In this document: positions 2,281 to 22,639 of the stretch, piece after piece
Layout of the letters: every line of letters begins with the position of its first letter
Position numbering within the stretch: the stretch's first letter is position 1
Assembly: GCF_024655565.1 (NCBI RefSeq)
Contig: NZ_JANKOF010000047.1
Span: forward strand, 1 to 35,326
Length of the DNA stretch: 35,326 nucleotides
From: Nitratireductor sp. ZSWI3
GTDB taxonomy: Bacteria; Pseudomonadota; Alphaproteobacteria; Rhizobiales; Rhizobiaceae
Direction: 5' to 3'
Made by a program: the position numbers and the translations under genes
The notes under the pieces: model-generated
The model's database searches: none
Told to the model about the DNA's origin: nothing
Seen by the model: only the letters and a program-made list of their open reading frames with translations

Positions 2281-2303
2281 GGTTCGGGTCCTCTTCCGGC
2301 GGA

Positions 2304-3512
<1,209 letters not shown>

Positions 3513-6595: not shown

Positions 6596-6919
6596 GAGGG
6601 TCCTCCAGCTCTCAGATCAAGAGTGCGGTCACGAGCGGATCGCACGATGGTCGGCGTGCTTTAGCAAATTTTGACGTTTCCGTAAACGTCAAAAATAATC
6701 CGACCAACGCTTCCGCGCCTTACAGCGCCCGTGCTTCATCTGGATGACCGGGAGGAACGATATGGCAGGGCGGATTTCCCGCGCGCCCGACATCGGCGCG
6801 TGCAGGAACGCCCGAAACGGCAAGGCCGTCGGGTTGCCGGCCGAAGCCGGAAGAGGTGGCTCATCGTGCGGAAAACCGGATGCGCGGGCCGGCATGAGGG
6901 GATGCGGCCCCGCAGGCAG
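6596..6919. other. Intergenic region between MerR gene and acyl-CoA oxidation operon
   Basis: This 324-bp gap holds the operator at 6671-6692 and the presumed promoter of the minus-strand operon. The rest (about 6700-6919) shows open frames on both strands but no convincing ribosome site or recognisable protein. I regard it as non-coding. Confidence 0.5.
6671..6692 (-). promoter_or_regulatory. Palindromic operator in front of the acyl-CoA oxidation operon
   Basis: Two 9-bp arms, TTGACGTTT and AAACGTCAA, form an inverted repeat separated by four bases (CCGT on the plus strand). Read on the minus strand its first six bases, TTGACG, would serve as a -35 element. A weak -10 (TTTGCT/TTGCTA) follows after 18-19 bases, the long-spacer layout typical of MerR-activated promoters. 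It lies 75 bp upstream of the first operon gene. The MerR gene next door is the obvious binder. The motif resembles operators reported for LiuR-type MerR regulators of acyl-CoA/branched-chain degradation, recalled here without a database check. Confidence 0.75.
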
Positions 6920-7375
6920 TCAGTCTTCGTTGCCGGAGGGCTGGATCCTGGCGAGCCTCTCGGTGATGTCGGCCACCAGCTGCTTGAGATCGCCGATCGC
7001 TTCTTCGAGCGTGTGACGCTGGCGTTCGAGGCGGGTCATCTGGCGCTCCGATTTCTTCAGCACCAGCCGGAACTGCTTCTCATTGGCGCCGTGCGGGTCG
7101 TGCAGGTCGAGCACTTCCTTGATGTCGTTCAACGAGAAGCCGATCTTGCGCCCGAGCAGGATCTGCTGCAGCCGCCGTTTGTCCTCGGCGGTATAAAGGC
7201 GGGTGGTTCCGACCCGCTCCGGGCTCAGCAGGCCCTTGTCCTCGTAGAAGCGCAGCGCACGCAGGGTGACGTCGAATTCGCGTGCCATTTCGCCGATGCG
7301 CGTGTAGTCCGCCGGCGTATCAGGAAAATCATTTTCCTCGGCTGCCTTCTGGGCGGCCATCGCAATGTTCATCAT
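6920..7375 (-). CDS. MerR-family transcriptional regulator of the acyl-CoA oxidation operon
   Basis: A protein of about 151 residues. After a 25-residue lead, the winged-helix MerR domain runs from YTRIGEMAREFDVTLRALRFYEDKGLL through LLGRKIGFSLNDIKEVLDL, followed by a dimerisation coiled coil rich in Arg/Glu/Leu to the C-terminus. There are no cysteines, so it is not a metal- or redox-sensing MerR of the classical kind; a CoA-ester ligand is plausible for a degradation regulator. Start choice is loose: GTG 7381, ATG 7375, ATG 7372 and ATG 7360 are all in frame, and a GGAAC ribosome-like site favours 7375 or 7372. It precedes the operon on the same strand with a 324-bp gap holding the operator, so it probably activates or represses the operon from that site. 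Confidence 0.85.
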   Translation of the reverse strand: MMNIAMAAQKAAEENDFPDTPADYTRIGEMAREFDVTLRALRFYEDKGLLSPERVGTTRLYTAEDKRRLQQILLGRKIGFSLNDIKEVLDLHDPHGANEKQFRLVLKKSERQMTRLERQRHTLEEAIGDLKQLVADITERLARIQPSGNED

Positions 7376-7381
7376 GATCAC

Positions 7382-7803
7382 TGTTCCGTATCGAATAGCT
7401 CACTCCGGTCTGCAACCGGGCTGGCTTCCTTGTCCGGCATGCTCGCACGTTGCCCGAGGGGCGGTGTTCATGCGGCCGGACAGGCTCACAAGGGCGGGCT
7501 TATGCGGCCGACAATGCGGCATTACAAGGGCAGCTGTAGAAATTTGATCGCTTCCCCAAGGGCAGGTTCGGGAGATCGCGACGGCGCCGTCGGTAAGAAT
7601 CGTTAACCCGCTGTTTACCATGATGGGCGAATTGTGGGCGCATCGGTGCGTCGCGCCTCCGTCGGTTTTCGGGAGGTCGCGGGCATCGATCGTAGGTGAT
7701 TACCCGGTTTCAGTGCCGCCGTTCAGCGTCTGCGACCCGAGTGCGCCTGCGTGGCTAGAAATGTCTATGGCCAACCGGAAACGGTGGAGAGGCGGGCGTT
7801 CCG
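7382..7803. other. Divergent intergenic region between MerR gene and podJ
   Basis: A 420-bp divergent promoter region. The part near the MerR gene shows no clear motif. The middle holds a GANTC site and a CtrA-like box (7597-7617). A ribosome site (GGAGAGGCGGG) lies just before the podJ start. A short plus-strand open frame starting at 7620 overlaps the podJ start in another frame and is not supported. Confidence 0.45.
7597..7617 (+). promoter_or_regulatory. GANTC methylation site with CtrA-like box upstream of podJ
   Basis: GAATC at 7597-7601 fits the CcrM methyltransferase site GANTC. Two bases later TTAA-CCCGCTG-TTTA (7603-7617) fits the CtrA consensus TTAA-N7-TTAA with one mismatch. The pair lies about 190 bp upstream of the podJ start. 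Cell-cycle control of podJ (GcrA/DnaA in Caulobacter) is known in alphaproteobacteria; binding here is inferred. Confidence 0.4.
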
Positions 7804-10800
7804 ATGAACAACAAGCGTTCCTATCTGGATAACATCAATGCAGGCAGACGCCGCCGCCCCGGCTCGGACGAAACCCTCGACCAGATCAGCAGAACGCTCG
7901 ACCATCTGGAAAGCCGGCTCGAGCACGCCAGAAATCCGCGCCCCGGACATCTGGAGGAAAGCGAGCTCGCGCGTCGCTTCCAGCGGCTCTCCGACAGCGT
8001 GTCCGGCGCCCGTTCGCGCACCGCGCCGCATTCCGAGCCGGTCGGTCGCGCTTCGTCCTCACAGGCCTCCCTGGAGCAGGCCGCACGCGCCCTGGAGCAC
8101 ACGCGCCGACAGGAACGCGAGGTTGCCTCGATCACCGGCATCGCCGGCGAGCTCAAGTCGCTGCGCGAGGATTTGCGCGATGTCATGCAGACCGGCATCA
8201 GCGGCGAGTTCGACATGCTGCGCCGCGAGCTGGCCGGCATCATGGCGGCCGTTCCGAATTCGGCGCTCAGCGGCGAGCTGGTGGTCGAGTTCGAACGGCT
8301 TTCCGACGCGATCGCGCAGCTCGCCGAGCGCAGCGACGACAGGAGCGTCAAGATGCTGCGCCTCGAGATGGAGGAGCTCAAATCCTCGATCTCGGCGCTG
8401 GCGCGAGAAGAGACGCTGCGTGCCGTCGATCGCCGCTGGGATGCCTTCGACGACCGCTGGACCGCCTTCGAGAACCGCATGTCGGCCGGTCTGCGCAACC
8501 CGGATCCGGCATTCGACATGCTGCATCAGCGGCTGGAGGAGATCGGCAGCGCCATCAACAGCCTGCCGGATTCTCTTTCGCTGCGGTCGCTCGATGAGCG
8601 CGTGCGCACGCTGGCGGCCGGGCTCGACAAGCTGGTCAGCCGCAAGGCGCCCGCCAATTCCGAACTTTACGCCGCCCTCGACGAGCGGCTCGACGAGATC
8701 TCCCGCGCCATCGCGGCATGCCTGCCGCGTGGGCAGGTCGCGAGCGTCGACCCCCAGCCCTTCGAGCGGATCGAAGCGCGCATTTCCTCGCTCGCCAATC
8801 AGGTCGCCGAGGTTCTGGCCGACCGGGCGGGAGACCAGGCGGTCGACCGCCTCGGCCTTCAGATGGAGGAACTCTCCAGGAGGGTCGACGACATCGCCAG
8901 CCGCATCGATCTGCCCGAGCAGATGGTCGAGCGGCTGGCCGGCCAGATCGCCGACATCGCCGACAGGCTCGACAATGCGCCGCAGTCGCAGGCGGCCGAG
9001 ATGATGCTGCGCGGCATGGACGATCGCTTCGCCCACCTCTCGCAGATGATCGAGCAGCGTCGCGACGACGCGACCGAATTTGGCCGCTCGCTGGTCTACG
9101 ACCTCGAGCAGCGCCTGCAGGAGATCACGGCGCGCCTGGATGGCCAGGCAGGCGGGCCGCCTGACGCCGCCGGCATCATGGCGAGCATCGACGAGCGCTT
9201 CAATGCGCTGGCTGCGCGCCTCGAGAGCAGCCTGCGCGAACCGCCGAACGCGGCCATGATCGGCGCGCTGGAGGCCCGGCTGGAAGACATTGCCGGGCGC
9301 CTGCAGTCTTCGTCGGCCGGAGCCTCGTCGGTCGATCCGGACGTCATCCGCAATCTGGAAATCCAGGTGAAGAGCCTTTCGGAGCATCTCTCACGGCCGG
9401 GGCTCGAGGTTCCCGAACTCGAGGACATCGGCCCGCGCCTCAAGAGCATCGAGCGCTCCGTTCAGGAAAACCAGGCCGCCGTTCTCGAAGCAGCCCGGCA
9501 GGCCGCCGCGCAGGCCATCGGCGCGCTCGGCGACAGCCCGCACACTGCCGCCGATCCGCATCTCAAGGAGGAGCTGAAGGCGCTGGAAGCGCTGGCGCGC
9601 AGATCCGACGAGCGCAACACCAAGACCTTCGAAGCGATTCACGACACCCTGTTGAAGATCGTCGACCGGCTCGGCACGGTCGAGAACGCGGCGAAGGCGA
9701 TGCCCGCCGACAGCGGCCGGAAGATCGCCATCGAGTCGGCGCCCTCCATCGAACCGGGCAACGAGGTCTCGACGCTCGCCGAGGAAGAACGCGCCGACAT
9801 TCCGCCCTATCGCTCGCCGGCGCAAGCTGCCGCCGCCGCTGCTCGGGCCGCCCTCGACGAGGACGGCGACGAACCGGACACGAGAACGGGCAAGGCCTCT
9901 CTCCTCAGCGGATTGTCGCGCAAGCTTGCCGGACGCAAGGACAAGCCCGCCACCGTGGCGCAAGAGCAGGTGGCGCAGGAGCTGGATGCAACCGACGAGA
10001 CGTTGGAGATCGACGTCGAGCGGCTCCATGAACCGCTCGAGCCCGGCACGGGTACGCCCGACCTCAACGCCATCATGCGCCGCGTGCGCGACGAGAAGAA
10101 GGCACCGGCGCGCGACGGCAACGATGCGGCGAAGTCGGATTTCATCGCCGCTGCGCGGCGCGCGGCACAGGCTGCGGCCGCGGAAGCGGAGATCCTGAAG
10201 AAGCGCCAAGACGCCATCTCCGAATCGTCGGGGCGCTTCGGCTTCGGCAGGATCCTCAAGCGCGCCGGCAAGCCCGTCGCCATGGCGGTGGGAGCCGGCA
10301 TTGTCGTGGTTGGCGGATTGCAGCTCGGCAAGGCCTATCTCTCCGAAACGACGGTCATCCCGTCGCAGATTGCCGCCGGCGAGGCGAAAAGCCCGGCGCC
10401 GCAGCCGGCGCGGCCGGTCGAGGACACTGTGGTGGGCGCTGCGAAGCCGATGACCGATCGCCCCGTGCGCGTTCTCGACGACGAGACGGAAGATGCCCGG
10501 GACGACGTGGTCGACACGCTCGCCGCCATGCCGCAGAAGGACGGCGCCTCCGCTTTGCAGGAGCCTGCGGAAAAATTCGTCGAGCGGCTGGATAAGGCGG
10601 ACACGGCTGCCGGTGACGCGGCGCTGCCGGCGACGCCGGTGGCGGCCAAGGCTTCCGTCGACGACATTCCAATGGACGCCGGTCCGCTGCCGCTGCGCGA
10701 GGCGGCCGCTGCCGGCGATCCCAAGGCCCTGTTCGAGATCGGCAGCCGCTATGCCGAAGGGCGCGGCACCAAGCCCGACATGGCCAAGGCCGGAAAATGG

Positions 10801-11532
10801 TATGAGAAGGCGGCGGAGGCGGGCCTTGCCCCGGCGCAATACCGCATCGGCGATCTCTACCAGAAGGGCACGGGCGTCGAGCGCGACCCGGCCACGGCCA
10901 AGATGTGGCTGCAGCTCGCCGCCCAGCAGGGCAATGCCAGCGCCATGCACAATCTGGGTGTTCTCCATGCGTTGGGTGCGGCCGGTCCCGTCGACAACGA
11001 CTCGGCCGCCCGCTGGTTCCTGGAAGCTGCCGAACACGGGATCAAGGACAGCCAGTTCAACCTCGGCATCCTGTCGGCCAAGGGCATGGGCGTGCCGCAG
11101 GACCTGACGGAGGCCTACAAATGGTTCGCGCTCGTGGCGATGACCGGAGACAAGGACGCGGCCGGCAAGCGCGACGAGGTTGCAGCGACGCTTTCGCCCG
11201 AACAGCTCAAGCAGGCCAAGGACAAGACGGCGCTGTGGAAGGCGAAGGCAGTCGAACCGGCGGCGAACGTCGTCGACATTCCGGATGCCTGGCGGGAGAG
11301 CCGGGAGATCACCGCCGGCATCGACATGAAGAAGGCCGTCGCCAACATCCAGCGCATTCTCAACAAGGAAGGCTTCGATGCCGGCACGCCCGACGGGCTG
11401 ATGGGAGAGCGGACCAAAACAGCCATCAAGGCGTTCCAGAAGGCCAACGGCATGACGGCCAGCGGCGAGGTGGACGAGACGCTCGTGCGCGCGCTCCTGA
11501 AGCGGAACGGCGACGCCGCGGCTGTAAATTGA
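7804..11532 (+). CDS. podJ: PodJ-like polar localisation factor (coiled coil, TM, Sel1 repeats, peptidoglycan-binding domain)
   Basis: A 1242-residue membrane-spanning organiser of the cell pole. Residues 1 to about 820 are cytoplasmic and mostly amphipathic coiled coil with repeated EERLDEIS/LEMEELKSSI-type heptads, ending in a low-complexity Ala-rich acidic stretch. A single transmembrane helix lies at about 824-842 (AMAVGAGIVVVGGLQLG). The periplasmic part holds a disordered linker, four Sel1/TPR repeats (about 970-1120; e.g. ALFEIGSRYAEGRGTKPD) and a C-terminal peptidoglycan-binding domain (about 1173-1235, LNKEGFDAGTPDGLMGERTK). This order is that of Caulobacter PodJ, though the protein is some 270 residues longer. 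Start ATG 7804 has a GGAGAGGCGGG ribosome site. It stands alone, divergent from the MerR gene, and is followed by repeats, not by a partner gene. Confidence 0.88.
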   Translation: MNNKRSYLDNINAGRRRRPGSDETLDQISRTLDHLESRLEHARNPRPGHLEESELARRFQRLSDSVSGARSRTAPHSEPVGRASSSQASLEQAARALEHTRRQEREVASITGIAGELKSLREDLRDVMQTGISGEFDMLRRELAGIMAAVPNSALSGELVVEFERLSDAIAQLAERSDDRSVKMLRLEMEELKSSISALAREETLRAVDRRWDAFDDRWTAFENRMSAGLRNPDPAFDMLHQRLEEIGSAINSLPDSLSLRSLDERVRTLAAGLDKLVSRKAPANSELYAALDERLDEISRAIAACLPRGQVASVDPQPFERIEARISSLANQVAEVLADRAGDQAVDRLGLQMEELSRRVDDIASRIDLPEQMVERLAGQIADIADRLDNAPQSQAAEMMLRGMDDRFAHLSQMIEQRRDDATEFGRSLVYDLEQRLQEITARLDGQAGGPPDAAGIMASIDERFNALAARLESSLREPPNAAMIGALEARLEDIAGRLQSSSAGASSVDPDVIRNLEIQVKSLSEHLSRPGLEVPELEDIGPRLKSIERSVQENQAAVLEAARQAAAQAIGALGDSPHTAADPHLKEELKALEALARRSDERNTKTFEAIHDTLLKIVDRLGTVENAAKAMPADSGRKIAIESAPSIEPGNEVSTLAEEERADIPPYRSPAQAAAAAARAALDEDGDEPDTRTGKASLLSGLSRKLAGRKDKPATVAQEQVAQELDATDETLEIDVERLHEPLEPGTGTPDLNAIMRRVRDEKKAPARDGNDAAKSDFIAAARRAAQAAAAEAEILKKRQDAISESSGRFGFGRILKRAGKPVAMAVGAGIVVVGGLQLGKAYLSETTVIPSQIAAGEAKSPAPQPARPVEDTVVGAAKPMTDRPVRVLDDETEDARDDVVDTLAAMPQKDGASALQEPAEKFVERLDKADTAAGDAALPATPVAAKASVDDIPMDAGPLPLREAAAAGDPKALFEIGSRYAEGRGTKPDMAKAGKWYEKAAEAGLAPAQYRIGDLYQKGTGVERDPATAKMWLQLAAQQGNASAMHNLGVLHALGAAGPVDNDSAARWFLEAAEHGIKDSQFNLGILSAKGMGVPQDLTEAYKWFALVAMTGDKDAAGKRDEVAATLSPEQLKQAKDKTALWKAKAVEPAANVVDIPDAWRESREITAGIDMKKAVANIQRILNKEGFDAGTPDGLMGERTKTAIKAFQKANGMTASGEVDETLVRALLKRNGDAAAVN

Positions 11533-11535
11533 GGG

Positions 11536-11805
11536 CTAGGGTCAGGACCTATTAAAATGGCCACAATGGCGTTCGATAGACCAAGAGATGCAAGGAAAAG
11601 CCCGCAGAGCGGGGTCTTTCCCCCGGTCAAGGGCTTTGACGCGGCAGATCGCCGGTCTATCGAGCGTCCTTTGGATCGGCCTGATTTGCACGGGCTACTT
11701 TGTCGCAAGACCTTGAAAGACGTGAAGTCTTCCTGCGGTCCTGCTTCGCGTATCCGCACAAATCAGGCCGACCATTGCGGCCATTTTAATAGGTCCTGAC
11801 CCTAG
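11536..11805. mobile_element. 270-bp palindromic element with 34-bp terminal inverted repeats (MITE-like)
   Basis: The left end 11536-11569 (CTAGGGTCAGGACCTATTAA...) and the right end 11772-11805 are inverted repeats identical over 34 bases except one. Inside are nested inverted repeats: CGTTCGATAGACC/GGTCTATCGAGCG, GGCCTGATTTG/CAAATCAGGCC, a CCCGC-AGA-GCGGG hairpin and a GAAGACTTC-type hairpin. It has no credible gene. Both ends are flanked by TA (CTA|GGGTCAGG and CCTGACCC|TAG), as expected for a TA target duplication of the IS630/Tc1 type. This makes it a non-autonomous element, probably moved by a transposase elsewhere. It starts 4 bp after the podJ stop, so it could also shape the podJ transcript 3' end. 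Confidence 0.7.
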
Positions 11806-11923
11806 TGGTCTGACCGAAACGGATGGTACCCATCCGTTTCGATAAGTCAGCCCACAAGCTATTGATCTGGTGGGGCGATTTGTCCTGACAGATGGGTACC
11901 ATCTGTCAGGATCGCACCACTAG
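11802..11923. repeat. RIME-like intergenic palindromic repeat, copy 1
   Basis: A roughly 120-bp element bounded by inverted CTAGTGGT/ACCACTAG ends. It contains two perfect hairpins: 12-bp arms CGAAACGGATGG/CCATCCGTTTCG with loop TAC (11815-11841), and 13-bp arms TCCTGACAGATGG/CCATCTGTCAGGA with loop GTA (11883-11911). Size and two-palindrome layout match the Rhizobium-specific intergenic mosaic elements (RIME). A shorter relative lies at 24786-24866. It shares its left CTAG boundary with the 270-bp element. Confidence 0.75.
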
Positions 11924-12056
11924 GTCGCAGTCTTCGACAGGTTTTGTCGTTTTCTGCGGCAAGTCGTTCAAACTTTTCTGCATTTGACCCCGACATGGTT
12001 TGACTTCGCCATCATCAGGGAGCAGAACGAAGACACGCATAATGCTTCCACATATG

Positions 12057-12079
12057 GCCTGGCGCGTTCGCTGCCAGGC
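12057..12079 (+). other. Hairpin directly before the TauE/SafE gene
   Basis: GCCTGGC (12057-12063) and GCCAGGC (12073-12079) pair around a 9-base loop, ending six bases before the first in-frame ATG at 12085. It leaves no room for a ribosome site for that ATG. So either translation starts further downstream (GTG 12103) or the hairpin affects initiation. Confidence 0.4.
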
Positions 12080-12084
12080 ACGCA

Positions 12085-13023
12085 ATGATTCGGGTGCCGC
12101 GGGTGGGTATTTATCTCCCCATCGCCGAAATGTCCGTGAACGTGTTCGTGCTGCTTGCCATGGGCGGCGCGGTCGGCTTCCTCTCCGGGATGTTCGGCGT
12201 CGGTGGCGGATTCCTGATCACGCCCTTGCTGATCTTCTACAACATCCCGCCGGCGATTGCCGTTGCGACCGGCGCCAACCAGGTGATCGCGTCGTCTTTC
12301 TCCGGGGCGCTCGTGCATTTCAAGCGCAAGACGCTCGACGTCAAGCTCGGCACGGTGCTGCTCGCCGGCGGTTTCGTCGGCGCCACGCTCGGCGCCCTCG
12401 CTTTCGCCTATCTGCGCCGGCTCGGGCAGCTCGACCTGATCGTCTCGCTGCTCTACGTCACCTTTCTCGGCGTGGTCGGCGGGCTGATGCTGACGGAGAG
12501 TATCGGCGCCTTGCGCCGGGCGCGGAGCGGCCAGGCCGTGTCGCTCAGGAAGCCGGGGCAGCACAACTGGATTCACCGGCTTCCGTTGAAGATGCGCTTT
12601 CGGGCCTCAAAGCTTTTCGTCAGCGTCATCCCGGTTCTCGGCCTCGGCGCCTTCATCGGCTTCCTCTCCTCGATCATGGGCGTCGGCGGCGGCTTCATCA
12701 TGGTGCCGGCGCTGATCTACCTGCTCAAGGTGCCGACGAATGTCGTCATAGGCACGTCGCTTTTTCAGATCATTTTCGTTGCCGCCTATACGACGATCAT
12801 CCATTCGACCGCCAACCAGACGGTCGACGTGGTGCTGGCTTTCCTGCTGATGGTCGGCGGCGTGGCGGGTGCGCAATACGGCGCCCGCGTGGGTCAACGC
12901 CTGCGCGGCGAGCAATTGCGGGCCCTCCTGGCGTTGCTTGTCCTGGCGGTCGCGCTGCGCCTTGCCTTCGATCTGTTCGTCCGCCCGGCCAGCGTCTATT
13001 CCCTGTCAGCAGGAGTCCTGTGA
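12085..13023 (+). CDS. TSUP-family (TauE/SafE) membrane permease
   Basis: A 312-residue inner-membrane protein of the sulfite exporter TauE/SafE family. The two homologous halves each carry the family signature, GMFGVGGGFLITPLL in the first and SIMGVGGGFIMVPAL in the second, with about eight hydrophobic helices separated by a basic cytoplasmic loop (about 150-180). Members export or import small sulfur-containing anions such as sulfite or sulfoacetate, but the substrate here is unknown. Start is uncertain: ATG 12085 follows a hairpin and has no ribosome site. GTG 12103 (giving VGIYLPIAEMSVN) is a likely alternative. The next gene begins 4 bp after the stop and encodes a TIGR02186 protein, a pairing common in alphaproteobacteria, so the two probably act together. 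Confidence 0.88.
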   Translation: MIRVPRVGIYLPIAEMSVNVFVLLAMGGAVGFLSGMFGVGGGFLITPLLIFYNIPPAIAVATGANQVIASSFSGALVHFKRKTLDVKLGTVLLAGGFVGATLGALAFAYLRRLGQLDLIVSLLYVTFLGVVGGLMLTESIGALRRARSGQAVSLRKPGQHNWIHRLPLKMRFRASKLFVSVIPVLGLGAFIGFLSSIMGVGGGFIMVPALIYLLKVPTNVVIGTSLFQIIFVAAYTTIIHSTANQTVDVVLAFLLMVGGVAGAQYGARVGQRLRGEQLRALLALLVLAVALRLAFDLFVRPASVYSLSAGVL

Positions 13024-13027
13024 AGCC

Positions 13028-13816
13028 ATGCCGTCGAAGGGGATCATCGCAGCGACGACGTTTCTGACCTTCGCACCGGTTCTGGGCGCGCGGGCGCAGA
13101 ACGCGATTCCCGAGAACATCCAGATCGGCCTGTCGACGGACCGCGTTTCCATCACCTCCGATTTCGCCGGCGCGGAGCTGACGATCTTCGGCGCGCTCGA
13201 CAATGCCGATCCGCTGGTAAGCCGGCAGGGCCGCTACGACGTGATCGTCGTCCTGGAAGGGCCGGCGCGCCCGGTGATGGTGCGCAAGAAGACGCGCGTT
13301 CTCGGCATGTGGATCAACACCGAATCCCAGATCTTCAGGGACGTCCCCGAATCCTACTCCATGGCGCTGACGCGCGCCCCGCAGGACATCACCGACCCGG
13401 CCGGCTATCGCCAGTTGGCGCTCGGCCCGTCCAACCTCTATCTGCAACCGCTGGACGCCGATGGCGACCCCAAGACGATCGAGGAGTTCACGGCGGCGCT
13501 GCGCGAGCGCAAGGAGGCTTCCGGTCTTTACTCCGTGCGCGTCGGCGGCGTGCGGTTCCTCTCGCAGAGCCTGTTCCGCGCCACGCTGACGCTGGCGCCG
13601 AACGTCGCCGTGGGCACGCATCGCGCCCGCGCCTTCCTGTTCCGCAACGGCATGTTCCTGCGCGAGACCTCGGCGCAACTCACCATCCGCAAGGCGGGCA
13701 TGGAACAGCGGCTTTACGAGTTCGCGCAACAGCACGGGCTGATCTACGGCATCGCTGCCGTGCTGATCGCCATCATCACCGGCTGGATCGGGCGGCTCGT
13801 CTTCCGCAAGGACTGA
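13028..13816 (+). CDS. TIGR02186 / Alph_Pro_TM family membrane-anchored protein
   Basis: A 262-residue protein of unknown function. It has an N-terminal signal sequence (about 1-23, ending GARA), a largely beta-rich extracytoplasmic domain (about 24-230) with motifs typical of the family (ITSDFAGAELTIFGA, MWINTESQIF, GVRFLSQSLFRATL), and one C-terminal transmembrane helix (about 237-257) followed by a short basic tail. It starts 4 bp after the TauE/SafE permease stop. Its ribosome site (AGGAG) lies inside that gene, so the two are translationally linked. The conserved pairing suggests an accessory role for the exporter on the periplasmic face; this is inference. It converges with pdeM, with only 12 bp between the stops. 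Confidence 0.85.
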   Translation: MPSKGIIAATTFLTFAPVLGARAQNAIPENIQIGLSTDRVSITSDFAGAELTIFGALDNADPLVSRQGRYDVIVVLEGPARPVMVRKKTRVLGMWINTESQIFRDVPESYSMALTRAPQDITDPAGYRQLALGPSNLYLQPLDADGDPKTIEEFTAALRERKEASGLYSVRVGGVRFLSQSLFRATLTLAPNVAVGTHRARAFLFRNGMFLRETSAQLTIRKAGMEQRLYEFAQQHGLIYGIAAVLIAIITGWIGRLVFRKD

Positions 13817-13828
13817 GGAACTGCTCGC

Positions 13829-14536: not shown

Positions 14537-17064
14537 CCGTCCATCGCCTCCTGCATCAGTTCTTCACCCGAAAGTCGCGAAGCCTCTCCGAGCAACGCCT
14601 CGTTGGCATCACCGGCGACCGCTTCCTTGCCGATCTCCAGCATGATCGGCACGGCAAGCGGCGAGATGCGCTCCAGCGATTTATGCACGATTCGCCCGCG
14701 AATGCGCGACAGCATCTCGCCCAGCCTCCTGACATCGAGCAGGCCCAGTGCGGCATCGGCCCAGGTGGCCTGCAACAGGATGTGATCGGGCTCGTGCGCG
14801 CGCAGCACGTCGTAGATGAGGTCGGCCGAGACGGTGACCTGACGCCCGGTCTTTTCCTGACCTGGATGACGCTTCTCCACCAGCCCGGAAATCAGGGCGC
14901 AATTGCGGAAGGTGCGTTTCAGCAGCCAACTGTCGGCGATCCAGGACTCCAGGTCGTCGCCGAGCATGTCCTCGTCGAGCAGGGCGGCCAGGCTCAGCGC
15001 CCGGCGCTTCAGCATCGCGCCCATGTCGTTGAGGCCCCACACGGCGATGGCGTAGTCGTTGGCGACGAAGCCCAGCGGATGGGTGCCGGCGCGCTCCAGG
15101 CGGCGCGTCAGGAGCATGCCGAGCGTCTGGTGCGCAAGGCGGCCTTCGAACGGATAGAGCACCATGTAGTGGCGGTTGCCGCGCGGAAATGTCTCGACCA
15201 GCAGGTCCTGGCGCCGCGGCAGTAGCGACTTGTCGCGCTGGATCGACAGCCATTCGGCGACCTGCTGAGGCAGGGCCTGCCAGCGTTTCGGATCGGCCAG
15301 CATGGCGCGCACCTCGCCCGCCAGATAGGTCGACAGCGGGAACTTGCCGCCGGCATAATAGGGGACCTTGGCATCGTCGCCGCCGCCTGCGGAGACGTAG
15401 CACTCGTTCTCGCGAATGCCCTCGAAGCGCAGCACCCGGCCGGAAAAGAGGAAGGTGTCGCCGGGCGCCAGCGTTTCGAGGAAATACTCCTCGACCTTGC
15501 CGAGCACCGGGCCGCCGCGCGAGACGCCGCCGCGCCCGCGCCGCACCATGCGGATGTTGAGCATCGGCGATTCGACGATGGTGCCGACATTGAGGCGGTA
15601 TTGCTGGGCGACCCGCGGATGCGAGACCCGCCACAGGCCGTCGGCGGTCCTGCGGATGCGCGCGTAGCGCTCGTAGCTCTTCAGCGCATAGCCGCCGGTG
15701 GCGACGAAATCGACGATGCGGTCGAAGGTCGGCCGGTCGAGGCCGGCATAGGGGGCGGCACTAATGATCTCGCCATACAGGACATCCGCGTCGAACGGTG
15801 CCGCGCAAGCCGAGCCCAGCACGTGCTGGGCGAGAACGTCGAGCGCTCCGTCGACCAGCGGCGGCGTGTCCTGGGCGCCCAGATAGTTGGCTTCGAGGGC
15901 GGCGCGGCACTCCATCACCTCGAAACGGTTGGCCGGCACCAGGATCGCCCGGCTCGGCTCGTCCATGCGGTGGTTGGAGCGGCCGATGCGCTGAGCGAGG
16001 CGGCTTGCCCCCTTCGGCGCGCCGACATGGATGACGAGGTCGACATCGCCCCAGTCTATGCCGAGATCGAGCGTCGAGGTGGCGACGATGGCCCGCAGGC
16101 TGTTGGTCTCCATCGCCTTCTCCACCTTGCGGCGCTGGCCGACGTCGAGCGAGCCGTGATGGAGGGCGATGGGCAGGTTGTCGTCATTGGCGCGCCACAG
16201 CTCGCGGAACAGAAGCTCGGCCTGGCTGCGCGTGTTGACGAAGAGCAGGGTCGTGCGGTGGGCGCGGATCGCCGCGTAGATCTTCGGGATGGCGTAGAGC
16301 GCCGAATGGCCGGCCCAGGGCACCCGCTCGTCCGTTTCAAGGATTGTGATGTCGGGTTTCGCCCCGCCCGTCACGGTGACGATGTCGGACAGCGCGCCGG
16401 GCGGATCCTGCGGCACGAGCCAGCGGCGCAGTTCGTCCGGCTCGGCGACCGTGGCCGACAGGCCGATCGCCTGAAGGGCAGGCCGCATGCGGCGCAGGCG
16501 GGCGAGCCCGAGCGACAGAAGATGCCCGCGCTTGGAGATGACCAGCGAGTGCAATTCGTCGAGCACGACGAAGCGCAGATCGCTGAAGAAGCGCTCGGCA
16601 TCCGGCGAGGCGATGAGCAGGGCGAGCTGCTCGGGCGTGGTCAGCAGGATGTCGGGCGGGGCGTGTTTCTGCCTTTGGCGCTTGTGGGCGGGTGTGTCTC
16701 CGGTGCGGGTCTCGATGGAGATCGACAGACCCATTTCGGCGACGGGTAAGTCGAGGTTGCGGTGGATGTCGACGGCCAGCGCCTTGAGCGGCGAGATGTA
16801 GAGCGTGTGGACGCCGCGCCAGGCTTCGCCCGGCCTGGGTTTCCGCTGCTCGGCGAGATCAGTGAGCGACGGCAGGAAGCCGGCGAGCGTCTTGCCCGCG
16901 CCCGTCGGAGCGATCAGCAGCGCAGAACGCCCGGCCTGCGTGCGGGCCAAGAGTTCGAGCTGATGGGCGCGCGGCTGCCATCCGCGCTTGGCGAACCACT
17001 CGCCGAAGGGCGCAGGCAGATAGGGCGCGGCTCCAAAGCCGGTGGGGCGGGTCCGGTGTTCCAA
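14533..17064 (-). CDS. Ligase-associated DNA damage response DEXH-box helicase (Lhr-like)
   Basis: An 843-residue ATP-dependent superfamily 2 helicase. Walker A is PTGAGKT (53-59), the DExH box is DELH (169-172), and the second RecA domain carries ATSTLDLGIDWGDVDLVIHVG and QRIGRSNHR (motifs V/VI). A winged-helix domain and the Lhr-core C-terminal DEAD/H-associated domain follow (about 400-830). This matches the TIGR04121 family that travels with an ATP-dependent ligase, an MBL-fold exonuclease and PdeM. The start is taken as TTG 17064, the first codon of an unbroken frame, with no clear ribosome site. A later start before FGAAPYLPAPFGEWFAKRGW is possible. Upstream lies a short AT-rich islet with an exported-protein gene on the same strand, 51 bp away. 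Confidence 0.9.
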   Translation of the reverse strand: MEHRTRPTGFGAAPYLPAPFGEWFAKRGWQPRAHQLELLARTQAGRSALLIAPTGAGKTLAGFLPSLTDLAEQRKPRPGEAWRGVHTLYISPLKALAVDIHRNLDLPVAEMGLSISIETRTGDTPAHKRQRQKHAPPDILLTTPEQLALLIASPDAERFFSDLRFVVLDELHSLVISKRGHLLSLGLARLRRMRPALQAIGLSATVAEPDELRRWLVPQDPPGALSDIVTVTGGAKPDITILETDERVPWAGHSALYAIPKIYAAIRAHRTTLLFVNTRSQAELLFRELWRANDDNLPIALHHGSLDVGQRRKVEKAMETNSLRAIVATSTLDLGIDWGDVDLVIHVGAPKGASRLAQRIGRSNHRMDEPSRAILVPANRFEVMECRAALEANYLGAQDTPPLVDGALDVLAQHVLGSACAAPFDADVLYGEIISAAPYAGLDRPTFDRIVDFVATGGYALKSYERYARIRRTADGLWRVSHPRVAQQYRLNVGTIVESPMLNIRMVRRGRGGVSRGGPVLGKVEEYFLETLAPGDTFLFSGRVLRFEGIRENECYVSAGGGDDAKVPYYAGGKFPLSTYLAGEVRAMLADPKRWQALPQQVAEWLSIQRDKSLLPRRQDLLVETFPRGNRHYMVLYPFEGRLAHQTLGMLLTRRLERAGTHPLGFVANDYAIAVWGLNDMGAMLKRRALSLAALLDEDMLGDDLESWIADSWLLKRTFRNCALISGLVEKRHPGQEKTGRQVTVSADLIYDVLRAHEPDHILLQATWADAALGLLDVRRLGEMLSRIRGRIVHKSLERISPLAVPIMLEIGKEAVAGDANEALLGEASRLSGEELMQEAMDG

Positions 17065-17115
17065 GATGGATCAGAACTAAACCAGAACGGATGGGTCGCC
17101 AAGAGGGACCTCGGC

Positions 17116-17373
17116 CTATTGTCGGCCGTGATCAGTTCCGAACCAGTCAAGCTGGCACCTGATTCCCGTAAACGTCAGCGGGCTGTCCTCGACGCCGTAT
17201 CGGAGCAGCACCCGGAACATTCGCATGTGCGCGTCCGAGGGGGGCAGCGCTTCAATCACAGTGGCCACATTGGAGAGCCTCGACGTGCACAGGAACCGTC
17301 GGGCATGCGCGTGCTGAACGATAAGAAGCGTTGCTATGGATGCCGAAAATATATTACGCGCGATCTTTTTCAC
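17116..17373 (-). CDS. Small predicted exported protein, no recognised family
   Basis: An 85-residue product with a clean signal peptide: MKKIARN, a hydrophobic core IFSASIATLLIV, and a likely cleavage after HAHA (residue 24). The mature part is about 61 residues, with two cysteines that could form one disulfide and no family I recognise. The start is GTG 17371-17373, because a strong AAGGAG ribosome site lies 7 bases upstream (17381-17386); the ATG at 17406 has no such support. Its upstream region is strikingly AT-rich compared with everything around it, a sign of recent acquisition or of a strong promoter. It lies 51 bp before the helicase start on the same strand, so read-through into the helicase is possible. 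Coding status rests on ribosome site plus signal peptide only. Confidence 0.55.
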   Translation of the reverse strand: MKKIARNIFSASIATLLIVQHAHARRFLCTSRLSNVATVIEALPPSDAHMRMFRVLLRYGVEDSPLTFTGIRCQLDWFGTDHGRQ

Positions 17374-17381
17374 TTTAGTAC

Positions 17382-17500
17382 TCCTTATTAAAATACATTT
17401 TATCATAATCGAAAAACATACAAAATTTTTATTTTATAATTGTAATTACTTATAAATATTATATATAATTACTTAATACTTACATTGATGACTGAGATCT
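17382..17500. other. AT-rich islet
   Basis: About 110 bases made almost entirely of A and T (for example a run of TATAAATATTATATATAATTACTT-like sequence in 17450-17475), inside an otherwise GC-rich genome. It forms the upstream region of the small exported-protein gene and contains the stop codon of the methyltransferase gene (17480-17482). It may be the remnant of an insertion or a strong, AT-rich promoter. Confidence 0.7.
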
Positions 17501-18454
17501 GACGCCTGGGGCAAGGACAGCGGCCGGCGCCAAGCCCGTCTCAACCCCCCGTCGGACGGCGACGACGATCAATCCCTCCATCGGCTCGCCGCGATCCATG
17601 CGGATCGTCGCCCGTTCGAGTGAGGAGACGTCGAAGCCGACGGCCGACAGGCTGGCGCGGAGGTGTGCTTCGGAGTGAGCATAGCGCTGCGAGGATCTCA
17701 GAACCATCGCCTCCGGTCCTGAGTGATGCTCCGTCGAGAACGCGAAGAGCGCGCCCGGTGCGAGGGCCGCTGCCACCACGGCAAACAGCCGGTCAAGAGC
17801 ACCCAGATATATGAGCACATCTGCAGCCGTGACGAGGTCGACCTGGTGCGGCAGGGCTGCGAGCGTCATCAGGTCAGCGCGAGCCAGCCGGTCGTAGATG
17901 CGCTTGGCCTCGGCACGTTTCAGCATCTCCGACGAGATGTCGAGACCTTCCAGAAAGCTCACTGTGCCGCGCACCCGCTCGCCCATCAGTCCCGTACCGC
18001 AACCAAGATCGATGGCGTGCGCGAAGCCGGGACGCCCCTGTCCGGCGATGGCGTCGGAGAGAAGCTCCGGCACGCGGTAGGCGAGCTTGTCCACCAGCGC
18101 TTCGTCGAAGGTGCCGGCATATTGGTCGAACAGCGTCTCGACGAAGGCCGAGGGAACCGCCTCCATGCCTTCGAGCGCGCCATGGAGCTCCAGTTTCAGT
18201 GTAGCCCCAAGCCGGTCGCTTGGGTCGAGGCGAAGCACCGTGCGCCAGGCGTCGATTGCCGCGGCGGTCTCACCCGCCTCCACCAGCATCTCGCCGTGGC
18301 GGAAATGGCCTGCAGACCAGGAGGGAGCAAGCGCCAGCGCCTCGCCCATCAATGCGGCGGCGGCCTTGAAGTCGCCCGCCTCACGCAGCATCGAGGCATA
18401 GTCGGCCCGGCGATCGGCCAGAAGATTGCCGGAGGAAAACGAAAGCGGGGTCAT
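17480..18454 (-). CDS. TPR-domain SAM-dependent methyltransferase
   Basis: A 324-residue cytoplasmic protein. Residues about 15-85 form TPR-like helices (ALMGEALALAPSWSAGHFRHGEML). A class I methyltransferase fold follows, with the SAM-binding motif AIDLGCGTGLMGE (motif core 149-155), LEGLDISSEML as motif II, and LVTAADVLIYLG as the motif after strand 4. The substrate is unknown. The start ATG is preceded by the 113-bp divergent region it shares with the exonuclease gene. The last 20 or so residues (after VVAVRRGVETG) look like non-family sequence, and the stop lies within the AT-rich islet. The original C-terminus may therefore have been replaced by an insertion. Its conserved position next to the repair exonuclease may mean a linked role, but nothing in the protein shows it. 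Confidence 0.82.
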   Translation of the reverse strand: MTPLSFSSGNLLADRRADYASMLREAGDFKAAAALMGEALALAPSWSAGHFRHGEMLVEAGETAAAIDAWRTVLRLDPSDRLGATLKLELHGALEGMEAVPSAFVETLFDQYAGTFDEALVDKLAYRVPELLSDAIAGQGRPGFAHAIDLGCGTGLMGERVRGTVSFLEGLDISSEMLKRAEAKRIYDRLARADLMTLAALPHQVDLVTAADVLIYLGALDRLFAVVAAALAPGALFAFSTEHHSGPEAMVLRSSQRYAHSEAHLRASLSAVGFDVSSLERATIRMDRGEPMEGLIVVAVRRGVETGLAPAAVLAPGVRSQSSM

Positions 18455-18567
18455 GGAGCATGGTCCGGAACCGCCCCGTGGGTGGGCGGCGAGCGCTTAT
18501 GCGCGAGAACAACACTCCTGACAAGCGCGTCTTTCGCGGGCGGAAAAAAAGCCTATCCTCCAGGGTC

Positions 18568-19578
18568 ATGAGGCCACAGGATCTGCTCCACCCGTGTCCC
18601 GAAGGGCTCTATTGCCCCCTTGGCGACTTCTTCATCGACCCGGTGCGCCCGGTGGATCGGGCGCTGATCACGCACGGCCATGCGGACCACGCGCGCGCCG
18701 GCCACCGCACCGTCCTGGCGACCCGGGAAACGCTCGACATCATGCGGCTGCGCTACGGGGCGGATTTTGCCGAAAGCCGGCAGGTCGCCGCCTATGGGGA
18801 AGGGCTCGACATTGGCGATGTGCGCGTGTCCTTTCATCCAGCCGGCCACGTGCTCGGCTCGGCCCAGATCGCGGTGGAGGCGAACGGCCTGCGCATCGTC
18901 GCCTCGGGCGATTACAAGCGGCACCTCGATGCCACCTGCACGCCGTTCGAGCCGGTACGCTGCGACGTCTTCATCACCGAGGCGACGTTCGGCCTGCCGG
19001 TCTTCGTGCATCCGGCGCCCGAGGTGGAAGCCGAACGGCTCGCGGCATCGCTCCGGCAGTTCCCCGAGCGGGCGCACATCGTCGGCGCCTATTCGCTGGG
19101 CAAGGCACAGCGCGTCATCAGCCTGATGCGCTCCATCGGGCATGACGAACCGATCCTGATCCACGGTGCGCTGGCGCGGATCAGCCGATACTACCAGGGG
19201 CAGGGCATCAAGCTCGGCAGGCTCGAGCCGGCGACCGTCGAGGAGGAAACGGCAACGCGCGGCGCCGGCCAGATCATCGTCGCCCCACCCTCCGTTCTGG
19301 GCGACCGGTGGACGCGCCGCTTCGCCGATCCGCTCAGCGCCTTCGCCTCGGGCTGGATGCGCATCCGCCAGCGTGCCAGGCAGCGCGGCGTCGAGCTGCC
19401 GCTGATCCTGTCCGACCACGCGGACTGGAACGAGCTGACGGCGACGATCCGCGAGACCGGGGCGGGCGAGGTGTGGGTGACGCATGGGCGGGAAGAGGCC
19501 CTGGTGCGCTGGTGCGAGCTGCACGGCATCGCCGCCAGGCCGCTCAATCTCGTCGGCTATGAAGACGAGGCCGATTGA
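18568..19578 (+). CDS. Ligase-associated DNA damage response exonuclease (MBL/beta-CASP)
   Basis: A 336-residue metallo-beta-lactamase-fold nuclease. The zinc motif HGHADH is at 36-41, further metal ligands lie in HPAGHVLGSAQ and SGDYKRH, and a beta-CASP-like region with SDHADWNEL follows near the C-terminus. This matches the TIGR04122 family of repair exonucleases. The start is ATG 18568 (MRPQDLLHPCPEGLYC); the 36 in-frame residues before it overlap the divergent promoter region and are not conserved-looking. Its stop overlaps the start of the ligase gene by one base (TGATG), so the two are translationally coupled. It presumably trims ends for the ligase. Confidence 0.9.
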   Translation: MRPQDLLHPCPEGLYCPLGDFFIDPVRPVDRALITHGHADHARAGHRTVLATRETLDIMRLRYGADFAESRQVAAYGEGLDIGDVRVSFHPAGHVLGSAQIAVEANGLRIVASGDYKRHLDATCTPFEPVRCDVFITEATFGLPVFVHPAPEVEAERLAASLRQFPERAHIVGAYSLGKAQRVISLMRSIGHDEPILIHGALARISRYYQGQGIKLGRLEPATVEEETATRGAGQIIVAPPSVLGDRWTRRFADPLSAFASGWMRIRQRARQRGVELPLILSDHADWNELTATIRETGAGEVWVTHGREEALVRWCELHGIAARPLNLVGYEDEAD

Positions 19579-21176
19579 TGCGGCGTTTCGCGGATATCCT
19601 CGACCGTCTCGTGCTGACGCCGGCGCGCAACGGCAAGCTGCGGCTCCTGGCCGATTATTTCCGTTCGGTGCCCGACCCCGACCGGGGGTATGCGCTGGCC
19701 GCGCTCACCGGCGGGCTCGACTTTCCGGCGGTCAAGCCGGCGATGCTGCGGGCGCTGGTCACTGAGCGGATGGACGAGGTGCTGTTCGCCTATTCCTACG
19801 ATTACGTGGGCGACCTGGCGGAGACGATTTCGCTGGTATGGCCGGCGCCGGACGATGCGAGCGCCGAGGCGCCGGCGCTCGGCGAGGTGGTGAACACGCT
19901 GAGCCGGGTCAGCCGTTCCGATGCGCCGGCGGTGATCGCCGATCTCCTCGACCGGCTCGACCCCTCGGCGCGGTTCGCGCTGATCAAGCTCGCCACCGGC
20001 GGCCTGCGCATCGGCGTTTCGGCCCGACTCGCCAAGCAGGCGCTGGCGGCGATGGGCGGCAAGGATGTCGGCGAGATCGAAGAGCTGTGGCATGGTCTTG
20101 AAGCGCCCTATGAGGCGCTCTTTGCCTGGCTCGAAGGGCGTGCCGGAAAGCCGCAGAGCGCGGCTCAGGGCCAGTTCCGCCCGGTCATGCTGGCCCACCC
20201 TGTCGGCGAGGGCGATCTCGAAAAGCTGGACCCGGCCGACTACGCGGCCGAGTGGAAATGGGACGGCATCCGCGTCCAGGCCGTCTGCGAGGGCGGCGTG
20301 AGGCGACTCTATTCGCGCACCGGCGACGAGATCTCCGGCGCCTTTCCGGACCTGATGGAGACGCTCAGTGGGCAGTTGGCGCTCGATGGCGAATTGCTGG
20401 TCGGCGACCCACGCTTGAGGACCGGGAGCTTTTCCGATCTGCAGCAGCGGCTGAACCGCAAGACGGTGTCGAAGAAGATGCTGGCCGATTATCCCGTCTT
20501 CATGCGCTGCTACGATCTCCTGCAGCGAGGCGAGCAGGATATGCGCCCGCGCCCCTTTGCCGAGCGGCGGGCCCTGCTGGAGGACCTTTTGCCGACGCTC
20601 GATCCGCAACGCTTCGATCTGTCGCCGCTGGTGGATTTCGGCGATTGGGCGGAGCTGGAGCATAAACGCAGCAACCCGCCGCACCCGATCATCGAGGGCG
20701 TGATGCTGAAGCGCTGCGACGCCGCCTATCTGCCGGGCCGGCCGAAAGGGCCCTGGTTCAAGTGGAAACGCGATCCCTTCACGGTCGACGCGGTGCTGAT
20801 GTATGCGCAGCGCGGACACGGCAAGCGGTCGAGCTACTATTCCGACTACACGTTCGGTGTCTGGGCGGGCCCCGAGGACGACCTCCAGCTCGTTCCGGTC
20901 GGCAAGGCCTATTTCGGCTTCACCGACGAGGAACTGAAGCTGATCGACAAATATGTACGCGACAACACGGTCGAGCGTTTCGGGCCGGTCCGCTCCGTGC
21001 GGGCAGAGCCCGGCCACGGTTTGGTGCTGGAGGTGGCGTTCGAGGGGCTGAACCGGTCGACGCGGCACAAATCGGGCATCGCGATGCGCTTTCCCCGCAT
21101 CGCCCGGCTGCGCTGGGACAAGCCCGCCGCCGAGGCCGATCACATCGAAGCGCTGACGGCCCTTCTCGACGCTTAG
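19578..21176 (+). CDS. ATP-dependent DNA ligase (ligase-associated repair cassette)
   Basis: A 532-residue ATP-dependent DNA ligase. Residues 1-190 form the DNA-binding helical domain. The adenylation domain starts with the nucleotidyl-lysine motif EWKWDGIR (K227), and later motifs include YSRTGDEISGAFPD, DGELLV, EGVMLKR and PWFKWKR (motif V). The OB-fold domain closes the protein (about 420-530). It resembles the PP_1105-type ligase (TIGR04120) found with an exonuclease, helicase and PdeM, not the Ku-associated LigD. The start is ATG 19578, overlapping the exonuclease stop. The gene is followed by a strong GC-rich hairpin that may end the transcript. Confidence 0.92.
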   Translation: MRRFADILDRLVLTPARNGKLRLLADYFRSVPDPDRGYALAALTGGLDFPAVKPAMLRALVTERMDEVLFAYSYDYVGDLAETISLVWPAPDDASAEAPALGEVVNTLSRVSRSDAPAVIADLLDRLDPSARFALIKLATGGLRIGVSARLAKQALAAMGGKDVGEIEELWHGLEAPYEALFAWLEGRAGKPQSAAQGQFRPVMLAHPVGEGDLEKLDPADYAAEWKWDGIRVQAVCEGGVRRLYSRTGDEISGAFPDLMETLSGQLALDGELLVGDPRLRTGSFSDLQQRLNRKTVSKKMLADYPVFMRCYDLLQRGEQDMRPRPFAERRALLEDLLPTLDPQRFDLSPLVDFGDWAELEHKRSNPPHPIIEGVMLKRCDAAYLPGRPKGPWFKWKRDPFTVDAVLMYAQRGHGKRSSYYSDYTFGVWAGPEDDLQLVPVGKAYFGFTDEELKLIDKYVRDNTVERFGPVRSVRAEPGHGLVLEVAFEGLNRSTRHKSGIAMRFPRIARLRWDKPAAEADHIEALTALLDA

Positions 21177-21204
21177 CGGTTCCGGCTTTGGCTGAAGCGG
21201 CCGA

Positions 21205-21330
21205 CCCCTCAAGGGGGAGGGAAGCCGGGTGTGCGCTCGATCATCCCCCTCCCCCTTGAGGGGAGGGGCAAGGGGTGGGGGTACTGCGGCGCCCCTTGAG
21301 GGGAAGGTGGCCGCCCCGTTCGACAAGCTC
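21205..21330. repeat. GC-rich intergenic palindromic repeat downstream of the ligase gene
   Basis: CCCCTCAAGGGGGAGGG (21205-21221) and its exact reverse complement (21247-21263) form a 17-bp hairpin. Another palindromic CCCCTTGAGGGG follows near 21291-21303. This CCCTCAAG/CTTGAGGG type is a common rhizobial intergenic repeat and lies in the convergent gap between the ligase gene and the membrane protein gene, where it could serve as a bidirectional terminator. Confidence 0.7.
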
Positions 21331-21395
21331 AGGAAGCCAGAGGGGGCGAAGGCCGCCCGACGCTTCAGCAAAGAATGAAAAGCCCTTCGCGAAGG

Positions 21396-22430
21396 TTAGC
21401 GGGTCGCCACCGCGGCGCGGATGCCGAAGATGTCGAGCGCGCGGCGCTGGCCGTCGATGTCGGGCACGATGGCGATGGTGCCGCCGCTGCCGGGATTTCC
21501 CTCGGGCAGATCCACCTCAAACAGATAATCGGAGCGCGTGGCGCCGACCACGTAGCGCGTCCGGCCGCAGCCGCCCAGCGAGCCGAAATGGCAGGAGATG
21601 GAGATCTGCGTCTCCTCGCCGTCCTGGGCGCGGGCATCGACGCTGAACATGGCGCGCTTGCCGGCCAGCGTTTCGAGGACGCCCTGTCCGACATCGAAGA
21701 CGATTGCCGTGTCGGCGTCGCTGCTGATGCGGATCAGGGCGCCGCCCTCCTCCTGCATCACATCGGCGCTGGCGTTGCCGGGGGCGGCGACGGTCGTCGG
21801 ATCGGTCGGCGAGAAAACGGTGATCCAGTTGCCGGTCGGGCGGCTGCCGCTCGGCGCATCGCCGGCATAGTCTTCCTCTTCCAGCCTCAACGGAGGATTG
21901 GGGACGCTGGTGTCGCGCTGTTCGCTGGACAGGAACAGCCCGCTGGTGATGCTCCACCACGCGCCGATGCCGAAGAAGGCGACCAGCGTGGCGACGAGGA
22001 ACAGCATGGCAAAGGGCCGACGCTTCCGGGGCAGCGCGGCCCGGATGCGCCGGGCGTTTTCGCGGGCCGAGGGTCTGCGCGGGGCGGTACGCCGGTCCTC
22101 CGGCTCGAGGTGGGGGGAGAGGTCGGCGGCAACAGTCGGCGCGGCTCTTCTGCTGAGGGGAGGCATCGGCGCGGGGGCGGGCCGCGGCTCTGCCTGGGGG
22201 ACGGGTGCAGCGGCCTGCCTGGCCGGCATGAACTCCGTTTCGATCTCGGTGATCTTGGCCTGCAGCCGCTCGCGCCGGACGCGCTTGGCGTCCTCGGCCA
22301 TCTCGGTGCGTGCCGAAAGCGTGCGCTCCAGCGCCGAGAAGGCGGACCGATAGACCTTTTCGCGGAACGCCCGATCGCGGGCATCGCCCTTCTCGAACGC
22401 TTGTCTTATGGCTTTTTCTATCGCGTCCAA
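21396..22430 (-). CDS. Hypothetical single-pass membrane protein
   Basis: A 344-residue protein I do not recognise by function. Residues 1-70 are charged and helical (AIRQAFEKGDARDRAFREKV, coiled-coil-like). About 70-138 is a Pro/Ala/Arg-rich linker. One transmembrane helix lies at about 139-160 (AMLFLVATLVAFFGIGAWW). The remaining 180 residues form a beta-rich periplasmic domain with two cysteines (SCHFGSLGGCGRTRY) that could pair. The start is TTG 22430, the only reasonable initiator near the start of the conserved-looking helix. Similar proteins are annotated as hypothetical in rhizobia, as far as I recall. It is convergent with the ligase gene and divergent from the nitronate monooxygenase gene. 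Confidence 0.7.
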   Translation of the reverse strand: MDAIEKAIRQAFEKGDARDRAFREKVYRSAFSALERTLSARTEMAEDAKRVRRERLQAKITEIETEFMPARQAAAPVPQAEPRPAPAPMPPLSRRAAPTVAADLSPHLEPEDRRTAPRRPSARENARRIRAALPRKRRPFAMLFLVATLVAFFGIGAWWSITSGLFLSSEQRDTSVPNPPLRLEEEDYAGDAPSGSRPTGNWITVFSPTDPTTVAAPGNASADVMQEEGGALIRISSDADTAIVFDVGQGVLETLAGKRAMFSVDARAQDGEETQISISCHFGSLGGCGRTRYVVGATRSDYLFEVDLPEGNPGSGGTIAIVPDIDGQRRALDIFGIRAAVATR

Positions 22431-22617
22431 GGCGTGCCGCTTTCTCTACGCATGACCTCGTTCCATGGTTAACCGCTGGTGATGATGCAATCAACGGTGA
22501 TAACAAGCTGTGAACAGGACCGTGCCGGCGATCGCCCGGACGCTCGCTGAGGCCGGTGAACCGGCGGCAAAATTGCCCGGGGAGGTTTTCCTCGGCAATG
22601 CTTTTGCTGTAGAAGCT

Positions 22618-22639
22618 TTGACGTTTACGAACACGTCAA
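22618..22639 (+). promoter_or_regulatory. Second copy of the acyl-CoA operon operator, in front of nitronate monooxygenase
   Basis: A 22-base inverted repeat with outer arms TTGACGT and ACGTCAA. It is identical at 20 of 22 positions to the minus-strand reading of the operator at 6671-6692, and in the same orientation relative to the gene it precedes. It lies 18 bp upstream of the start codon. Its first six bases, TTGACG, could be a -35 element, with a weak -10 (TTAGAG) 17 bases later. The likely binder is the MerR protein encoded at 6920-7375. Confidence 0.75.

Follow-up and report, generated by a model that had tools for sequence, protein, structure and literature searches.

Why do two almost identical 22-bp palindromes lie far apart in one stretch of bacterial DNA, one beside a MerR-family regulator gene and an acyl-CoA oxidation operon, and the other in front of a lone gene labelled nitronate monooxygenase (NMO)? 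The stretch, called the window hereafter, comprises 35,326 nucleotides from Nitratireductor sp. ZSWI3 (contig NZ_JANKOF010000047.1, positions 1 to 35,326, forward strand). Judged by the sites, their conservation and the genes behind them, the palindromes are very likely operators of a LiuR-type MerR regulon of acyl-CoA oxidation that includes the NMO-like gene.

Two probable operators and their conservation

6671-6692, minus strand: operator 1, the 22-bp palindrome of the operon that begins with the acyl-CoA dehydrogenase gene ACAD1, located by pattern search
22618-22639, plus strand: operator 2, a 22-bp palindrome 18 bp before the NMO start codon, conserved in relatives

Read towards its gene, operator 1 is TTGACGTTTACGGAAACGTCAA and operator 2 is TTGACGTTTACGAACACGTCAA, and the two agree at 20 of 22 positions, with mismatches at positions 13 and 15. 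Operator 1 follows the MerR stop codon and precedes the ACAD1 start, so that it faces ACAD1 instead of lying upstream of the MerR gene. The pattern TTGACGTTTNCGNAAACGTCAA was searched with up to 3 mismatches, with the reversed pattern as a control and shuffled sequence as a second one. No third copy was found in the window at this threshold and no match in 100 shuffles, while the whole 5.2-Mb genome yielded just the two operators and none for the reversed pattern. The preliminary description, which had placed both palindromes, their 20/22 likeness and the lack of a further copy in the window, is borne out on these points by direct comparison and search; the genome-wide scan that it had proposed gave two places with the strict pattern and five with a degenerate motif (see below), and not a multitude of unrelated genes. 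That the palindromes resemble each other by chance is practically out of the question, as the control searches were empty, the analytic expectation is 0.027 places per genome, and conservation at the same positions in relatives refutes it.

Both operators are kept in all nine same-genus genomes searched (9/9), the MerR-side operator at 20/20 and the NMO operator at 18 or 19/20, 15-19 bp before the NMO start. Upstream DNA was then examined for 30 of 37 NMO matches, 27 of them within the family, counting this genome itself, and 3 in different families of the same order. Loss of the NMO site in relatives had been named beforehand as speaking against the link; the site is kept, scoring at least 17/20 in 20 and at least 14/20 in 25 of the 27 family genomes, and shuffled NMO upstream DNA reached 14 in 8/2000 trials and 15 in none. 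On the other side of the regulon, ACAD1 lies beside the operator in 23 of 31 loci derived from the pattern (L001-L031). A scan of named genomes, limited to the best 80 of 585 NMO loci and with groups assigned from organism labels, found a score of at least 14/20 upstream of NMO in 28 loci. These include 25 of 27 rhizobial loci (all but L118 and L158; one of the 25 bears a Rhodobacteraceae label), several of which come from the same genomes as the family set, and 3 of 14 loci in Sphingomonadales. No such site was present among these 80 in the Caulobacter-type (0/8), Bacillus-type or Myxococcales loci.

Several observations weigh against a general link between operator and NMO. The sites at the expected position are weak in G019 (13/20) and G032 (12/20), and the three order-level NMO homologues (G041, G044 and G054) have no site, with scores of 10 to 12 of 20; together with the 52 of the 80 named-genome loci that score below 14/20, these three mark the link as lineage-bound. 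Real flanks of the same NMO loci, used as a control, gave a score of 14 for three loci and 15 for one, so that the weakest members of the conserved set are not certain. Finally, 40 of 60 relatives contained matches to TTGACGTTTNCGNAAACGTCAA, and 7 of 60 had one match each to its reversed form, which means that single 3-mismatch places in distant genomes, taken among the matches listed, may be chance.

The proposed regulon and its MerR proteins

6920-7381, minus strand: MerR-family regulator gene, 153 amino acids (PF13411, 4e-16)
4799-6595, minus strand: ACAD1, acyl-CoA dehydrogenase with a PF12806 C-terminal domain, first gene of the operon (Pfam/NCBIfam)
3560-4729, minus strand: ACAD2, acyl-CoA dehydrogenase (Pfam/NCBIfam)
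2304-3512, minus strand: thiolase, acetyl-CoA C-acetyltransferase (NF006090, 725 bits against a cut-off of 514; start set from the NCBIfam match)
58-2352, minus strand: FadB/FadJ-like enoyl-CoA hydratase / 3-hydroxyacyl-CoA dehydrogenase (Pfam/NCBIfam; start uncertain)
22658-23608, plus strand: NMO-family flavoenzyme gene, 316 amino acids (PF03060, 75.9 bits against a cut-off of 28)

Pfam and NCBIfam confirmed the MerR gene and the four-gene acyl-CoA oxidation operon proposed beforehand. The four operon genes are all on the minus strand, separated by short gaps, and the MerR gene lies upstream of ACAD1; its protein matches PF13411, PF00376 and PF09278, all above cut-off. Positions 7804-11532, next to the MerR gene, encode a large protein that carries Sel1 repeats together with a peptidoglycan-binding domain. 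A similarly long open reading frame adjoins the ACAD1 operator in G028 (locus L189), where MerR is missing as if it had been lost.

Searching the genome with the degenerate motif TTNACKTTTACGTAAAMGTNAA at up to 3 mismatches gave five places, three of them outside the window, and none for the reversed control. The site at C28:6639 lies upstream of a second acyl-CoA dehydrogenase gene (49% identical to ACAD1), whose counterpart in G026 (72% identical) also has a site. The one at C46:31713 stands ~155 bp before the gene for electron-transfer flavoprotein (ETF)-ubiquinone oxidoreductase (ETF-QO), and a homologue in G023 (81% identical) carries the site as well in upstream DNA that has otherwise diverged. 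In locus L228 the ETF-QO gene beside the site is on the minus strand. The third, at C102:4476 (4476-4497, L187), is upstream of a second MerR gene (G000:C102:3995-4363), which was found near mgtE in the three loci inspected. A closely similar palindrome scores at least 15/22 upstream of such mgtE-type MerR genes in 23 of 24 loci, and 15 was reached by 5 of 2000 shuffled stretches, so that this paralogue apparently regulates its own gene. The regulon would thereby comprise about five promoters: those of ACAD1-ACAD2-thiolase-fadB, NMO, the second acyl-CoA dehydrogenase, ETF-QO and the mgtE-linked MerR paralogue.

For some related genes no such site was found. The isovaleryl-CoA dehydrogenase gene of the genome has no site within 1.5 kb on each side (best 13/22), the NMO paralogue of the same genome (C6:20635, 56%) has none nearby at 16/20 or above, and a search at up to 3 mismatches gave none for the second NMO of G028 (72%). 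A distant NMO match (54%) was seen in G027. A further site was noted near a MarR gene in G001 (L204), and a weak one in G028 (L192). Three more were each seen in a single genome: between an alpha/beta hydrolase and a DAHP synthase region in G028 (L191:5580), near a nitroreductase gene in G013 (L206:5981), and before an FAD-binding dehydrogenase (PRK12834) in G026 (L198:4759).

Which of the two MerR proteins would bind these sites? In a tree of 58 MerR rows with midpoint root, the ACAD1-adjacent type stands apart from the mgtE-linked type (support 96/91); the adjacent clade includes most order-level rows and three Sphingomonas rows, the mgtE-linked clade joins the Burkholderiales LiuR rows (94/67), and the placement of two order-level rows and of the long-branched G025 row is uncertain. 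It is distinctly possible, if somewhat less probable than the opposite, that the mgtE-linked paralogue is the main binder and the adjacent MerR a dispensable or specialised duplicate, or that both bind. In G017, G018, G019 and G028 the mgtE type is the sole homologue at E<=1e-9 and yet the operators persist; its genes carry the similar upstream palindrome described above; and the helix-turn-helix region is near-identical between the two types in an alignment of eight. Against this, the adjacent type forms its own order-wide clade and lies beside the ACAD1 operator in 16 of 23 loci, suggesting a dedicated role; the 3-kb loci of the other 7 showed no MerR. The paralogue may hence share or own the sites. 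The small MerR regulon put forward in the preliminary description stands in part: few genomic sites and a conserved NMO site make up a small conserved set that joins beta-oxidation genes and NMO, but the adjacent MerR as its regulator is left unproven by the four genomes with only the mgtE type. A compact regulon with two MerR paralogues and near-identical operators is a good case for studying how paralogous regulators divide their targets.

Promoter layout and proposed mode of control

6662-6668, minus strand: TTTGCTA, putative extended -10 region downstream of operator 1 (columns +3 to +9 kept in 11 to 17 of 19 promoters; no support from the shuffle test)
22610-22615, plus strand: TAGAAG, putative -10 immediately upstream of operator 2

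Both operators contain TTGACG, a good -35-like hexamer, which had been suggested to serve as the -35. Canonical MerR activator promoters centre the dyad within a 19-20 bp spacer, and ligand binding would twist the promoter. That the present promoters work in this way, with TTGACG as the -35 and a long spacer, is improbable, even though the regulator belongs to the MerR family: the dyad centre lies just 5 bp behind TTGACG, which would not put it mid-spacer, operator 2 leaves only 18 bp to the NMO start codon, and operator and conserved flanking element are arranged differently in the two promoters. In the alignment of 19 ACAD1 promoters, 8 of them same-genus, the conserved element follows the operator, and in the set of 25 NMO promoters a TA[GT] element comes before the operator in 18 and after it in 3. 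TTGACG is probably not the -35, since the conserved flanking elements would put the promoters elsewhere.

A regulator working from both positions relative to the promoter element would most simply be a repressor acting by occlusion, and the layout suits repression better than activation of the MerR kind. The composition-shuffle test backs this reading and the placing of the promoters weakly, with z 2.0 for the NMO element and no support for the ACAD1 element. In the proposed mechanism, a LiuR-type regulator would bind both palindromes as operators and most likely repress from them, blocking the -35 region at the ACAD1 promoter and the transcription start at the NMO promoter until a pathway ligand such as an acyl-CoA releases it. 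A passage of the Shewanella work describes LiuR itself as a MerR-family repressor (PMC3223726).

The NMO-like enzyme and known systems

The shared operators suggest that the NMO-labelled enzyme works in fatty-acid breakdown, and a second line of evidence comes from Burkholderiales. Among the same best 80 loci, an ACAD1-like acyl-CoA dehydrogenase gene ends at most ~350 bp upstream of NMO in 18, one of which (L116) reaches the contig end; in L124, an acyl-CoA dehydrogenase gene lies ~2 kb from NMO. Wherever the contig extends, etfB and etfA precede the dehydrogenase, giving an etfB-etfA-ACAD-NMO operon. Upstream of etfB, 13 loci were readable: 4 have a 22-bp match of at least 17/20 (a perfect palindrome in L144), 6 have a shorter palindrome TTRACG-N4-CGTCAA and 3 have neither, and neither kind occurred in 13,000 shuffles of these upstream regions. 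The perfect palindrome TTGACGTTTACGTAAACGTCAA also lies beside MerR genes in 3 of 4 Burkholderiales genomes searched. In L247, isovaleryl-CoA dehydrogenase adjoins a MerR gene with this same palindrome, which is the LiuR-LiuA arrangement, and in L246 a thioesterase gene follows MerR and is itself followed by an acyl-CoA dehydrogenase gene.

Upstream of etfB, 10 of the 13 loci (L144, L155 and similar) also match a further conserved inverted repeat of the GAACGATCGTTC kind. Lying next to the LiuR-type site, it suggests that etfB-etfA-ACAD-NMO is under dual control, perhaps by FadP, which a passage on Comamonadaceae describes as a TetR-type regulator of fatty-acid degradation (PMC5343134).

What reaction might the enzyme carry out? 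Among solved proteins it is closest to those of the FabK type, TM0800 among them (56-74 bits), followed by the Streptomyces nitroalkane oxidase (46-50 bits), and the Pseudomonas and Shewanella nitronate monooxygenases and PA1024 at 29-35 bits. Close kinship to the characterised nitronate monooxygenases was not found on these bit scores, and the FabK equivalog model TIGR03151 was matched at 69.3 bits against a cut-off of 453.1. The protein has an invariant GGH motif with the catalytic-type histidine of the family. The AlphaFold model has a mean pLDDT of 86.7, falling below 50 at residues 153-157 around this motif. A fold search with the model returned FabK first, then the Streptomyces enzyme (TM 0.79-0.81), PA1024 and FabX; it does not discriminate among FabK, nitroalkane oxidase and PA1024, and the fold gives no decision on the reaction. 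Two readings were rejected on the sequence scores, that of a quinone reductase of the PA1024 type and that of a near relative of the Pseudomonas nitronate monooxygenase.

The preliminary description had offered nitro-lipid degradation as a role, for which no evidence was found. A true nitronate monooxygenase that clears nitro-lipids or propionate 3-nitronate and is co-induced with fatty-acid breakdown would agree with PF03060 membership, the GGH motif with its histidine and the good fold match to the Streptomyces nitroalkane oxidase. I regard it as unlikely, given that the Pseudomonas and Shewanella enzymes score well below the FabK types and that the Burkholderiales gene is joined to ETF and acyl-CoA dehydrogenase. 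The favoured proposal, based on family relatives and genomic wiring, is an acyl- or enoyl-CoA oxidoreductase of fatty-acid degradation: a flavin mononucleotide (FMN) enzyme in acyl-CoA oxidation whose substrate would probably be an acyl or enoyl thioester, as for FabK and FabX. These two are NMO-family members acting on acyl thioesters according to a passage in PMC8626469. More broadly, and with the balance tipped only slightly against it, the widespread PF03060 subgroup may be an unrecognised component of acyl-CoA oxidation, an FMN enzyme for acyl-/enoyl-CoA or for electrons of the ACAD-ETF-ETF-QO chain, wired in through a shared operator in Rhizobiales and through the etfB-etfA-ACAD-NMO operon in Burkholderiales. 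Many bacterial proteins carry the nitronate monooxygenase label without a tested role, and a conserved operator together with a conserved ETF/acyl-CoA dehydrogenase operon provides this subgroup with a metabolic setting that can be tested and indicates which substrates to try first.

LiuR orthologues were reportedly proposed for fatty-acid genes in alphaproteobacteria by Kazakov et al. in 2009 (J Bacteriol 191:52-64); the membership of NMO was not found in the searchable literature. No work joining nitronate monooxygenase or 2-nitropropane dioxygenase with MerR, LiuR or ETF was found in titles, abstracts and passages, and an earlier listing in target or supplementary tables is possible.

Set beside the LiuR regulon, as described in passages of PMC3223726, PMC5343134 and PMC7238569, the present system has in common a MerR-family regulator and the palindrome found at Burkholderiales MerR genes, in one case with isovaleryl-CoA dehydrogenase. 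It differs in its targets, here acyl-CoA oxidation, ETF-QO and NMO, with no site at the isovaleryl-CoA dehydrogenase gene, and in its adjacent MerR, which falls in a different clade from the Burkholderiales LiuR rows. With FabK and FabX, its nearest solved relatives, the NMO-like protein shares the fold and the catalytic-type histidine, but identity is only ~20-24% and its gene is tied to degradation, not synthesis. PA1024 of Pseudomonas aeruginosa, a presumed nitronate monooxygenase that a passage of PMC10033279 gives as an NADH:quinone reductase, offers a parallel in that the label nitronate monooxygenase stands against another reaction, whereas in sequence it is remote from the NMO-like protein (33-34 bits, 19% identity).

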